Assembly (NCBI GenBank): GCA_017938985.1
Contig: JAGBAK010000096.1
Span: forward strand, 1 to 50,217
Direction: 5' to 3'
DNA length: 50,217 bases
Origin: Clostridia bacterium
GTDB lineage: Bacteria > Bacillota > Clostridia > Oscillospirales > Acutalibacteraceae
This document shows positions 37,649 through 45,203 of the stretch, piece after piece (position 1 is the first letter of the stretch; each line of letters begins with the position of its first letter). Position numbers and translations under genes: made by a program. The notes under the pieces were generated by a model. It saw only the letters and a list, made by a program, of their open reading frames with translations. It was not told the DNA's origin and did not search any database.

Positions 37649-38134
37649 GTGTTTTGCGGTAAGTGCGGGGCGGCAATTAAGCCGGGAGCGCGTTTTTGCT
37701 CAGCCTGCGGTGCGCGGGTAACCGTTTCACCCGTTAACAACCGGGTTGACGGCAGCTTGCTGATGTCTCAACTGATAAAAAAGTTGCGGTCAGAAATTTT
37801 TGCATGGAGTGTCGTTGTTTTGGTTCAATGCATAGTTTCGGTTATTCTTTTTTCGCAAGGTGGTGGCGAAAACATATTTTCAGGCATAATCTGTTCGGTT
37901 TGTGCCCTGCTTAACATTGGTTCTGTTTATGATGATTATACTTTTCTTAATCAAATCAAAAACAAACCTGCAGGCATTGTTGCCAGGTATGAGTCGATGC
38001 CCGGTTTCTGGGTTGCGTTTATCTGGAGCGTAACAAGAGGTCTCGGTGTTGGTCTTATTGCTTGGATTTTTACAATGCTGACCAGAAGCTTTGTTCTGGA
38101 TAACAGACAAAGCTTTCTCGAACTCGAAGAATAA
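37649..38134 (+). CDS. Zinc-ribbon membrane protein (161 aa)
   Basis: An N-terminal zinc ribbon (FCGKCGAAIKPGARFCSACG, two CxxC pairs) is followed by hydrophobic segments at ~55-75 (FAWSVVVLVQCIVSVILF), ~82-95 and ~125-150. The protein is probably an integral membrane protein with the ribbon on the cytoplasmic side. Start is GTG 37649-37651 behind AAGGAGG. Zinc-ribbon/TM proteins of this type are common in Firmicutes and mostly uncharacterised. It is followed 27 nt later by a second zinc-ribbon protein and is divergent from the XRE gene. Confidence 0.85.
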   Translation: MFCGKCGAAIKPGARFCSACGARVTVSPVNNRVDGSLLMSQLIKKLRSEIFAWSVVVLVQCIVSVILFSQGGGENIFSGIICSVCALLNIGSVYDDYTFLNQIKNKPAGIVARYESMPGFWVAFIWSVTRGLGVGLIAWIFTMLTRSFVLDNRQSFLELEE

Positions 38135-38161: not shown

Positions 38162-38704
38162 ATGTTCTGTAAAAAATGCGGTAAAGAAATAGCTGAAGGT
38201 CTTACAACCTGCCCCGAATGCAATGCAACAACACAGGCTGCACAGTTGCCTGCGGAGAATGCTGCAGGTGGAGTAAAAGGCTTTGTTGACGGCTATAAGA
38301 ATTTTGGTTCACTTTCAAAGAACAGCAAGATTATTCACATTGCCGTTCCTGTTGTTGCGGTGATTGTTGTTGCTGTTGTTCTTTCGCTTATTTTCTCAAA
38401 AGACTATGTTGCCATGGTTAAGGACAGTACACTTGACGATTATTCCAAAACAGTAACCGTAGGTGAGGCGTTTGACGAATTCTTTTCTGACCCCGAATGG
38501 GAAACTTTCAAGTCTGAAGACGGCGACAGAATCGTTGAATTCAACGGCGAATGTGAATATTACGGCGAAAAAGTAAATTGCTGCGTTCAGTTTGAGATTT
38601 CGGATGACGATGATTACTTTGAGGTTGAATATATGGATATCGACGGCGAAAGCCTGAATAAGCTTGAAATCCGTGCAATGCTCGAAGTTATTTATGAAGG
38701 CTGA
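38162..38704 (+). CDS. Zinc-ribbon protein with one membrane segment and acidic outer domain (180 aa)
   Basis: The protein starts with a zinc ribbon (FCKKCGKEIAEGLTTCPEC). A spacer with NSKIIHIAVPVVAVIVVAVV as transmembrane segment (~60-80) follows, then an acidic C-terminal domain of about 95 residues (TVGEAFDEFFSDPEWETF, later FEISDDDDYFEVEYMDIDG). This small extracellular domain recurs in ruminococcal zinc-ribbon proteins, as far as I recall; its role is unknown. The SD is AAAGAGG before ATG. It is probably co-transcribed with the preceding zinc-ribbon gene and ends at the terminator at 38731. Confidence 0.85.
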   Translation: MFCKKCGKEIAEGLTTCPECNATTQAAQLPAENAAGGVKGFVDGYKNFGSLSKNSKIIHIAVPVVAVIVVAVVLSLIFSKDYVAMVKDSTLDDYSKTVTVGEAFDEFFSDPEWETFKSEDGDRIVEFNGECEYYGEKVNCCVQFEISDDDDYFEVEYMDIDGESLNKLEIRAMLEVIYEG

Positions 38705-40845: not shown

Positions 40846-40932
40846 GCCGATGTGATGGAATTGGCAGACGTGACGGACTCAAAATCCGTTGGTAGCGATA
40901 CCGTGCGGGTTCGACCCCCGCCATCGGCACCA
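40846..40932 (+). tRNA. tRNA-Leu (anticodon CAA)
   Basis: Acceptor stem GCCGATG (40846-40852) pairs with CATCGGC (40922-40928), followed by discriminator A and an encoded CCA. The anticodon stem ACGGA/TCCGT encloses CTCAAAA, giving anticodon CAA, which reads UUG. A long variable arm (TGGTAGCGATACCGT) and GGTTCGACC T-loop fit a class II leucine tRNA. Confidence 0.96.
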
Positions 40933-41005: not shown

Positions 41006-41392
41006 ATGAACAACAAACTCAGAGCTGTATTGGCAGCCGCAATGCTTCTGTGCTCGGTTGCGCTTATTGCCTTCGGACTTTTCGGCAATTTTGAAAAATT
41101 CGGAAACAAGCAGATAATAGCAACCTTGTTGCCTACGCAGGCATACAGGTCAAGCGCAAATACGGTGAAATCGGCAGGAAAAGAAATAAACGGAACCGCA
41201 GCGACTGGTCTTAATTTCAGCGCGGATGACGAAAAGATAAATTATATTGTTAACACGGACAGCAAAGTGTTTCACCATCCGTGGTGCAGCTTTGCGGAAA
41301 AGATAAGCGAAGAAAATATCAAGCTTGTCTATAACAATGCATACGAATTAATTCAGGAGGGATACCAACCCTGCGGCAAATGTCATCAGTAA
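41006..41392 (+). CDS. Small membrane-anchored protein with Ada-like metal-binding C-terminus (128 aa)
   Basis: The start is ATG 41006 behind AAAGGAAAGG; the longer open frame runs back through the tRNA and is not credible. An N-terminal membrane segment (VLAAAMLLCSVALIAFGLFG) is followed by a linker and a C-terminal module: NTDSKVFHHPWCSFAEKI, then NNAYELIQEGYQPCGKCH. This His/Cys...CxxC pattern resembles the small Ada-type zinc-binding fold appended to secreted nucleases. No nuclease domain is present. No own promoter is visible, so it may depend on read-through past the tRNA terminator. Confidence 0.78.
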   Translation: MNNKLRAVLAAAMLLCSVALIAFGLFGNFEKFGNKQIIATLLPTQAYRSSANTVKSAGKEINGTAATGLNFSADDEKINYIVNTDSKVFHHPWCSFAEKISEENIKLVYNNAYELIQEGYQPCGKCHQ

Positions 41393-41470: not shown

Positions 41471-41499
41471 TTGCCAAGAACGATTTGTTTTGATATAAT
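41471..41499 (+). promoter_or_regulatory. Promoter of the structured leader RNA
   Basis: TTGCCA (41471-41476), 17-nt spacer, TATAAT (41494-41499) with extended TG at 41491-41492. Predicted start near 41506. Confidence 0.8.
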
Positions 41500-41505
41500 C
41501 AACTT

Positions 41506-41655
41506 GCTGCACAAAACGCATATTGTTTTCCAACACGGGAATACCTTGATAAAAGGTGATTCCCTTTTTTCTCATGCCGTGTTGGAAGAGCGTTTGTGTA
41601 GCGACAACGAGGGGATGCACTTTTTTGATGCGTTCCTTCGGGGGCGCATTTTTTT
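41506..41655 (+). promoter_or_regulatory. Structured leader RNA with antiterminator/terminator switch, class not recognised
   Basis: Three elements follow one another. First is a long hairpin, 41506-41602: GCTGCACAAAACGC pairs with GCGTTTGTGTAGC, then TTCCAACACGG pairs with CCGTGTTGGAA, with an inner hairpin (CCTT/AAGG). Next, CGAGGGGATGC (41608-41618) can pair over 11 bp with GCGTTCCTTCG (41630-41640). Third, ATGCGTTCC (41628-41636) pairs with GGGGCGCAT (41641-41649) around a TTCG loop followed by T6, an intrinsic terminator. The second and third structures exclude each other. The SD AGGAGGTGA follows at 41662. I match no known riboswitch consensus. Confidence 0.8.
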
Positions 41656-41676
41656 ATTTTCAGGAGGTGATTTGTA

Positions 41677-42582
41677 TTGAAGTTCGGATTAAGAAAACCG
41701 TCGCTTAAGCGATCTTTAAAAGCAAGAACAACAGGTCGGGCTAAAAGGGCTGTTAAAAAAGCTTTAATTCCGGGATATGGCAAAAAAGGAGTAGGGTGGA
41801 TTAAAAATCCTAAAAAATCACTGTATAACAAAGTTTACAGAAAAACAACTTTTGGCGTAGGAGATTTATTCAGATTCAGCTTTGGCTCAAAAAAGAAAAA
41901 TAAAACCAAACGAAACACGGCAAAAAGGAATGATAATATGGAACACAATGAAAACGTGAACAACATCAAAACACCGTTTTATAAAAAGAAATGGTTTATT
42001 ATTTTGGTTTCTGTGTTTGTGCCTGTGGCAGGCATAGTTTTTGTGTGGAAATCAAAAAGCAATATAAACAAGGGTGTAAAAATAGGACTGACTGCAGTTG
42101 CGTCTTTCTGGTCGGTTATTCTGCTGGCAATCGGTTTTGGCGGTGGTGAAACCGCCGAAGAAACAACCCAACCTGAAACCACAACCGCAATAATCGTAGA
42201 ATCAACAACAGTTGCGCCTGTTGAATCCACAACGGCAGAAATTATTGAGGAGTCAACAACCGAAGCGAGTACAACGGAAGAGTCAACAACGCAAAAAGCT
42301 ACAACTACCGCAGCACCAACCACAACAAAAAAGGTAACCACTACGACCGCTCCAACAACTAAGAAAGAAACAACCACAAAGAAAGTCACCACAACAGCAA
42401 AACCAACTACCACAAAGAAGGTTACGGAGAATCCTGAAGAAAATATCAAGGTGTATCGCACCAAAACGGGAGAAAAGTATCATTATGAGAATCCTTGTGG
42501 AAACGGTACTTATTATGAAATCTCACTTGCAGAGGCAAAGCGTATTGGTCTTGGGGCGCGTGAGAAATGTGTTTTGCAATAA
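41677..42582 (+). CDS. Basic membrane protein with Thr-rich linker and Ada-like C-terminal module (301 aa)
   Basis: Start is TTG 41677-41679 with AGGAGGTGA six nt upstream. Residues 1-~85 are strongly basic and lack hydrophobic segments; LIPGYGKKGVGWIKNPKKSL looks like a conserved module that I have seen in phage- and plasmid-associated Firmicute proteins (recollection, not checked). Two membrane segments follow (~108-125 and ~137-153), then a Thr/Glu/Lys-rich low-complexity linker (~158-250). The end is a module VYRTKTGEKYHYENPC...EAKRIGLGAREKC, related to that in the preceding gene but lacking the second CxxC pair. Expression is probably set by the upstream attenuator. Function unknown. Confidence 0.82.
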   Translation: MKFGLRKPSLKRSLKARTTGRAKRAVKKALIPGYGKKGVGWIKNPKKSLYNKVYRKTTFGVGDLFRFSFGSKKKNKTKRNTAKRNDNMEHNENVNNIKTPFYKKKWFIILVSVFVPVAGIVFVWKSKSNINKGVKIGLTAVASFWSVILLAIGFGGGETAEETTQPETTTAIIVESTTVAPVESTTAEIIEESTTEASTTEESTTQKATTTAAPTTTKKVTTTTAPTTKKETTTKKVTTTAKPTTTKKVTENPEENIKVYRTKTGEKYHYENPCGNGTYYEISLAEAKRIGLGAREKCVLQ

Positions 42583-44577: not shown

Positions 44578-45203
44578 ACGGACGCTGAGAAGGTGGGGCA
44601 GTCGCGGGCAGTTTATTAACTGCGTGAGGAAAGTCCGAGCTTCACAGAGCAGGATAACGGCTAACGGCCGCCGAGGGTGACCTTAGGGAAAGTGCAACAG
44701 AGATATACCGCCTGCGTAGAGTGTCGGGAGCAATTCGGACTATGCCTGAAAACAAATTGTGTTTCAAAATGGATGGTATAGGTCATACAGCTCTTTTAAA
44801 AGTCAAGAACGCTCAAAAATCTTTTGCTTTCAGGTCGAAGATTTTTTATCGTGAGGATTTTTGGCTTATAAAGGCACAAAACGGAGCAAATCCTTAACGG
44901 CTTTGCGAGTATTTTAACGAAGAGAAGACGGAAATCATCCGATAAAAAACAGTTCGGATTATTCCCGACGCTCTATGTAGGTAAGGGTGGAAAGGCGAGG
45001 TAAGAGCTCACCGGGGCACGGGGAACCGTGCTGCCCTGCAAACCCTATCCGAAGCAACACCGACCGGAGGAGAAGCTCTTTGAGCTTCGGCGCTTGCTCG
45101 GCGATACTCCGAAGGGTGGCTTAAGCCATGCAGCAATGTATGGCGTAGACAGATGATTGCCTTAAATGACAGAACTCGGCTTACAAGCCTTCTCGGCGTC
45201 TGC
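44578..45203 (+). ncRNA. rnpB: RNase P RNA with enlarged P12 arm
   Basis: The catalytic RNA of RNase P, which matures tRNA 5' ends. Universal blocks are present: GAGGAAAGTCCGAGC (44632-44646), GGGAAAGTGCAACAGAGATATACCGCC, GGTAAGGGTGGAAAGGCGAGG with TAAGAGCTCACC, and AGACAGATGATTGCCTTAAA near the 3' end. P1 pairs GACGCTGAGAAGG (44581-44593) with CCTTCTCGGCGTC (45188-45200). The RNA is about 625 nt, against roughly 350-420 for most bacteria. The surplus lies between ACCGCC and GGTAAGGGTG, in an arm closed by 44715-44729 pairing with 44963-44977. The exact ends are estimates. Confidence 0.95.

Follow-up and report, generated by a model that had tools for sequence, protein, structure and literature searches.

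The leader at positions 41506-41655 of the window (the whole 50,217-nt stretch of Clostridia DNA that was analysed) is, as far as sequence comparison indicates, one copy of a large family of clostridial RNA switches that has apparently not been described before. It is probably a cis-acting conditional terminator that works by a relay of exchanged strands, and would be the first of a large class of RNAs to be described. The sequence observation made in a preliminary description of this DNA, that a promoter is followed by a hairpin and by mutually exclusive antiterminator and terminator helices, is confirmed, and its interpretation is partly supported.

Architecture of the leader in the window

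The consensus promoter that had been claimed for this leader was located by a motif scan and the family profile at 41471-41499 (forward strand, as are all features of the element), with a −35 sequence TTGCCA, a 17-nt spacer, and an extended −10 sequence TATAAT preceded by TG, matching the consensus at 11 of 12 positions. The proposed ~97-nt hairpin was found at 41506-41602 (97 nt), with an energy of −42.0 kcal/mol when folded alone. The 11-bp antiterminator (41608-41618 with 41630-41640) was present in the predicted minimum-energy fold, and the described UUCG terminator with its T-run coincided with a terminator-like site at 41627-41650 that has 10 pairs, a 4-nt loop, and then a U-run. Directly after the switch, also as described, stands a strong Shine-Dalgarno sequence (AGGAGG, 41662-41667, read from the sequence), and a TTG start lies at 41677. 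The leader as a whole (41504-41660) folded at −64.9 kcal/mol, compared with −37.35 kcal/mol (SD 3.59) for dinucleotide shuffles (n = 200), resulting in a z of −7.67, and none of the 200 shuffles folded as stably as the real sequence. The antiterminator and the terminator are mutually exclusive and have one strand in common, which supports the attenuator architecture suggested earlier.

The hairpin was resolved by folding into a P1 5' strand (41506-41519), where, judging also from covariation and the spacing to the −10 sequence, transcription is likely to start or to have its start close by, a P2 5' strand (41526-41538), a strand A' (41537-41545), a P2 3' strand (41577-41587), and a P1 3' strand (41590-41602, supported also by covariation). 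A' would pair within the hairpin with strand A (41551-41566) to form P3, as indicated by the fold and by the covariation of A':A in the family. Strand A comprises the A-run of the loop and a 3' segment, and fold and covariation point to either A' or strand B, in a pseudoknot, as its partner. Its 3' part and the following pyrimidine-rich bulge occupy 41560-41576. Across the family, the stretch immediately 3' of A is for the most part unpaired, based on pairing probabilities in 94 copies, and is proposed as a toehold; in the window copy, this region is partly covered by GGGAAU:AUUCCC pairs in the fold. The linker GACAAC (41603-41608; conserved as RRCAA), a proposed loop 3 of the pseudoknot, leads to B (41608-41626), the 5' strand of the antiterminator, which is complementary to A too. 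Strand C (41627-41640) serves as both the antiterminator 3' strand and the terminator 5' arm, and strand D with the U-run (41640-41655) forms the terminator 3' arm. B, C, and D were assigned from the fold and covariation, and C and D from the terminator scan as well.

The pairing of A with B, which the preliminary description had missed, comprises 16 predicted pairs with one bulge between 41551-41566 and 41609-41625 (−17.6 kcal/mol). Rather than standing as an aptamer apart from a two-helix switch, as had been assumed, the hairpin contributes a switching strand of its own, the strand in its loop, which pairs with the antiterminator strand.

The controlled gene (41677-42582; TTG start) encodes, by ORF translation, a protein of 301 aa with a basic N terminus, hydrophobic segments, a Thr-rich middle, and a Cys-containing C terminus, for which the Pfam scan gave no match above the cut-off. 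A similar Cys-containing ending (..C..C), presumably resembling an Ada-type metal site, is shared by the controlled protein (42420-42582, +) and the protein encoded upstream (41007-41392, +), and is also seen at 751-1965 of another locus of the family (L270). Two neighbouring genes for zinc-ribbon membrane proteins lie at 37649-38131 (+) and 38162-38701 (+), the first above and the second below the Zn_Ribbon_1 cut-off. A class A RNase P RNA of 614 nt occupies 44586-45199 (+); it matches the model over its full length (1-367), and one of its helices carries an insert of ~250 nt close to model position 136. A tRNA-Leu gene (40846-40929, +) is located 665 nt upstream of the element. Within 1 kb of the 178 copies of the family described below, 17 tRNA genes were counted upstream (of 14 elements) and 3 downstream, mostly on the same strand, a count that is rough because upstream flanks are often short. 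Some of the units of element plus gene may be cargo inserted behind tRNA genes.

Distribution of the family

A BLAST search with the leader against 99 genomes gave some match in 11, several of which were true homologues with the letters rearranged and the plan kept; three others (L002, L008, and L012) looked like chance matches and were left unused. A covariance model was built from seven homologues over 58 positions of the 3' half only (P1 foot, linker, B, and terminator). In the family sample, 137 of 300 genomes were hit at E ≤ 0.01, with a maximum of 17 matches in one genome. At E ≤ 1e-4, the order sample gave hits in 98 of 295 genomes (maximum, 14) and the class sample in 74 of 291 (maximum, 15), these samples being overlapping. 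The phylum sample yielded 1 of 249 genomes, namely the window's own, and doubles as a check for false positives. An exact 22-base pattern matched at least 120 stretches in named genomes, and the 80 match titles listed were of Clostridia, Oscillospiraceae, Ruminococcus, and similar metagenome-assembled genomes, most being named after rumen or gut samples.

Seven of the 108 rows of the first copy set (four duplicate views of the same copies and three weak partial ones) and six of the 89 rows of the second (L170, L125, and L178 by hand, and three with short upstream DNA) were dropped. The resulting 184 copies, minus six that were identical or contained N, gave 178 distinct copies for analysis.

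An origin of the element in phages or plasmids was rejected: the 22-base pattern, which fits only some copies, had no match in IMG/VR, a search of plasmids gave no match, and, of two matching records labelled as phage, one (H2) was a bacterial-looking contig by its ORFs. A copy is carried by L270 (MT835845.1), labelled Bacteriophage sp., the ORFs of which look bacterial (ClpB-like, YicC-like, and aminopeptidases).

Conserved helices and the A:B pseudoknot

An extended −10 element was present upstream of P1 in 174 of the 178 copies and at 6-7 nt before P1 in 123, indicating that the RNA starts at or beside P1. The promoter profile of the family is TTG..TRTGnTATAAT (122 copies), and the copies start from a vegetative-type promoter. 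The median length from the RNA start to the end of the model match was 160 nt (122 copies). In the hairpin, P1 is followed by a 5' bulge with a conserved AAUA-like sequence, by P2, and by P3 (A':A), which has the loop UUUGGU and the A-run; the 3' bulge, rich in pyrimidines, comes next. Beyond P1, a linker that contains CAA (CA in 170 of 178 copies) leads to B, C, and D. Among unpaired residues, the loop GG was conserved at 81-83% and the bulge U at 63-74%, a moderate level that is below expectation for a strict small-molecule aptamer. A resemblance of the bulge and loop to boxA and CsrA motifs was discarded, the letters not being kept in distant copies. Two or three copies less than 450 nt apart were found at 8 of 165 loci, and at the three tandem loci inspected (L026, L046, and L063) each copy had its own promoter.

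Homologous leaders preserve both alternative helices, which had been named as a check on the earlier proposal, and the helices are hence not a product of chance. The comparison shows that P1, A':A, A:B, B:C, and C:D are conserved and covarying, with B:C being the least so, and that A:B is a conserved pseudoknot of the family. When cognate strands were compared with swapped partners in 128 non-redundant copies (out of 174, 4 of the 178 having been lost earlier for want of an A anchor), cognate pairing was preferred for P1 (p = 9e-23), A':A (2e-20), A:B (8e-22), and B:C (1e-7), and the A:B duplex energy was −15.6 kcal/mol for cognate and −11.8 kcal/mol for swapped strands. The control pairings A'B, AC, A'C, and P1b:B exhibited no cognate preference in the same test.

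In an alignment of 37 copies, retained from a trial alignment of 48 after removal by hand of 11 gappier or longer ones, the cells paired amounted to 94.4% for A:B, 94.7% for P1, 99.7% for C:D, and 92.1% for B:C, and two-sided changes were observed in 6 of the 13 A:B pairs, including columns with U-A/U-G/C-G/G-C and with G-C/A-U/U-A/U-G. Because these copies had been selected by hand, the count was repeated on all 94 full-length copies. A:B was paired in 96.0% of cells, compared with 89.6% (maximum, 90.7%) after shuffling and 38-61% after sliding, and there were 77 double-change cells compared with 23.4 in shuffles; C:D and P1 were paired at 99.5% and 92.4%, respectively. For B:C, 92.5% of cells were paired, compared with 89.7% (maximum, 91.0%) in shuffles, with 28 double-change cells against 11.5 and 4 pairs with double changes against 3.6. 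The B:C pairs with double changes barely exceeded shuffles, and by this comparison B:C is a real helix and the weakest one.

Position-wise shuffling with a second, independent anchoring placed A:B positions 1 and 2 past the A-run above shuffles (0.89 vs 0.76 and 0.85 vs 0.70), and position 5 was likewise above shuffles with the same anchoring. Positions 3, 4, 6, and 7 were not above shuffles, partly because a bulge lies there in many copies. Since kinship among sequences inflates covariation counts, the number of shuffles is not to be read as a probability, and the helices are more safely supported by the tests with swapped partners, sliding, and control pairs. The idea that A', A, and B form a U.A-U triplex was abandoned, as A' and B are each antiparallel to A.

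Proposed strand relay

In the proposed relay, transcription would begin at the foot of P1, and the P1-P2-P3 hairpin would be the first to fold, with A' holding A. Strand B, as it emerges, would invade the hairpin by pairing initially with the 3' part of A, which is largely unpaired and would serve as a toehold, and the U-run of B would then displace A' from the A-run. With the A:B pseudoknot formed, C would be free for D, resulting in termination (OFF, the presumed default). Alternatively, the hairpin or bulge may be held by a diffusible signal in the form of a small molecule or protein, so that B pairs with C, no terminator forms, and the gene is read (ON). The leader would thus operate as a strand-exchange relay A'-A-B-C-D, in which A' competes with B for A, and A competes with D, via B and C, for the outcome. 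The helices, the promoter position, and the gene placement derive from comparison of the copies; the folding order, the default state, the direction of control, and the existence and nature of a signal are what we infer.

The segment 7-14 nt past the A-run had a pairing probability within the hairpin of 0.14-0.30 (94 copies), and this unpaired segment, together with an order of B synthesis that matches the direction of zipping into the A-run, fits toehold exchange. The OFF state (A:B + C:D) was predicted to lie below the ON state (A':A + B:C) in 94 of 94 copies, by 12.5 kcal/mol on average without a pseudoknot penalty and with tertiary contacts and kinetics ignored, which suggests that termination is the default and that a signal would hold the hairpin. 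In the window copy, the gap is only ~4 kcal/mol before any pseudoknot penalty, making its default state uncertain.

Genes downstream of the element

An ORF with a Shine-Dalgarno sequence was present downstream of 155 of the 178 copies, with its start codon 12-40 nt past the element in 111 of the 155. Of the 97 downstream proteins, the alignment and scan covered 95, all except L146 and L165. Among the best 25 of the 51 families matched, BspA-type leucine-rich repeats occurred 15 times, DUF6273 and double zinc ribbons 4 times each, and CHAP and List_Bact repeats 3 times each, and there were one or two matches each to cell-wall peptidases, SLH, EcoRI-type methylase, ABC transporter, sigma factor, and others. 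By a crude hydropathy rule, an N-terminal hydrophobic segment was called in 48 of 78 genes starting within 60 nt compared with 63 of 265 control ORFs taken from named loci (Fisher p = 1.3e-9); the remaining 30 of the 78 fell outside this envelope rule. The targets are therefore diverse and enriched in secreted and membrane proteins.

Three copies (L053, L064, and L076) lie directly 5' of related adenine-methyltransferase-like genes, and one of the 95 scanned proteins matched EcoRI_methylase at 2e-111. In two genomes (G805 and G668), several copies (L260, L263, L264, L268, and L269) precede small Cys-rich ORFs of 66-83 aa that begin MIID..TGIEL.PGN and carry a CCCDEC motif, and three further copies (L254, L096, and L102) precede short ORFs that by eye are AbrB/SpoVT-like.

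As one leader stands before many unrelated genes, its signal is likely to be general rather than specific to the 301-aa protein, and the earlier expectation that the ligand would reveal the role of that membrane protein is unlikely to hold. We tentatively envisage a regulatory RNA that occurs across the class Clostridia, is missing from Rfam, and links a modular set of envelope and accessory genes in many species to one general signal via a four-step co-transcriptional toehold relay. Its terminated leaders of ~160 nt, each with an A and a B strand, might in addition work in trans on sister copies.

Candidate input signals

A riboswitch that binds a small molecule, either a second messenger or a common metabolite, is a reasonable candidate that nonetheless falls somewhat short of an even chance. 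The terminator/antiterminator expression platform with a pseudoknot, the tandem copies, and the modular placement before unrelated genes with no fixed protein neighbour are in keeping with it, but few unpaired residues are near-invariant. GGDEF was found in 11 of 22 carrier genomes, picked for completeness and copy number (1-17 copies), and was not found in the other 11, including carriers of 10 and 7 copies, so that c-di-GMP is unlikely as the universal ligand and was rejected as such.

Slightly more doubtful is a protein-bound attenuator, in which an RNA-binding protein common in Clostridia holds the bulge or hairpin as an antiterminator and no small-molecule pocket exists. The unpaired conservation, a low-complexity pyrimidine run and a GG loop at 60-80%, resembles a protein site more than a pocket, and the copies are patchy in distribution (137 of 300 genomes). 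However, LoaP, the only antiterminator tested, was above its curated cut-off in 0 of the 22 carriers and not in the window's own genome (81% complete), and it was rejected as the partner; a match to the LoaP model below the cut-off occurred in 22 of 22 carriers and likewise in most control genomes. The GGDEF and LoaP results weigh against c-di-GMP or LoaP as the one obligatory input and have no bearing on other ligands.

That the leader has no external input, with a kinetic partition, or one set by temperature or transcription speed, between A:B and B:C fixing a low or variable expression of surface genes, appears unlikely: the two helices are of similar stability in the window copy and the targets are variable and of surface type, but a fixed leak would not need a ~97-nt hairpin with a conserved loop, bulge, and linker. 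A chance strong hairpin beside an ordinary terminator, conceivable in an AT-rich window with 9 terminator-like sites against 2.6 expected from shuffles, is so improbable as to be set aside, being refuted by homologues with compensatory changes in hundreds of genomes of the class.

Relation to known RNA families

The leader had been described as fitting no known RNA class, and this held: Rfam 15 at gathering scores matched only RNase P RNA and a tRNA in the window, and over the window and 48 further loci together the only matches were to RNase P, tRNAs, and one abiF, all away from the element (in one batch of loci, eight matches comprised seven tRNAs and the abiF RNA in L158, far from the element). 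A permissive Rfam search of the leader gave a best sub-threshold match of 19.4 bits compared with a gathering score of 55, and a known Rfam family was accordingly rejected. Literature searches, with a 2017 survey of 224 motifs lying outside them, found no description of the leader family, and the parts of PMC8632094, PMC11109978, PMC6429828, and PMC2864571 covered by a word search held no account of it. The proposed mechanism is transcription attenuation, and the family appears to be new with respect to Rfam 15 and these searches. If the proposed relay is correct, a regulatory RNA present in a quarter to half of the sampled genomes of a major class of gut bacteria, in up to 17 copies each, has been without an Rfam entry. 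Identifying its ligand would uncover a signal by which surface proteins, cell-wall enzymes, and accessory genes are controlled in largely uncultured organisms, and the relay itself would be a clean example from nature of co-transcriptional strand exchange through a toehold.

The ZTP and fluoride riboswitches are transcriptional and use strand exchange with a pseudoknot, and the present leader resembles them in its leader hairpin, pseudoknot, mutually exclusive antiterminator and terminator, and a ribosome-binding site right after, but it differs in lacking an Rfam match and in having mainly envelope and accessory genes, rather than one pathway, as targets. In LoaP-dependent antitermination, an RNA hairpin likewise lies before a terminator in Firmicutes, ahead of large gene clusters, whereas the present leader has its own antiterminator helix and none of the 22 carriers tested showed LoaP above the cut-off. 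The GEMM-I and GEMM-II c-di-GMP riboswitches often precede surface-protein genes in Clostridia, sometimes in tandem, as do copies of the present family, which differs from them in having no Rfam match and in that half of the tested carriers had no GGDEF detected. According to its description, the SLH motif is an orphan riboswitch candidate of Clostridia that is found before surface-protein genes, with 80 examples of which ~60% precede S-layer-homology genes (PMC6429828), whereas an SLH domain occurred in 1 of the 95 downstream proteins of the present family, a distinction drawn from that description and not from the consensus of the motif. Among the sources considered, the SLH-motif candidate is the nearest published idea, with a different target profile (PMC6429828).
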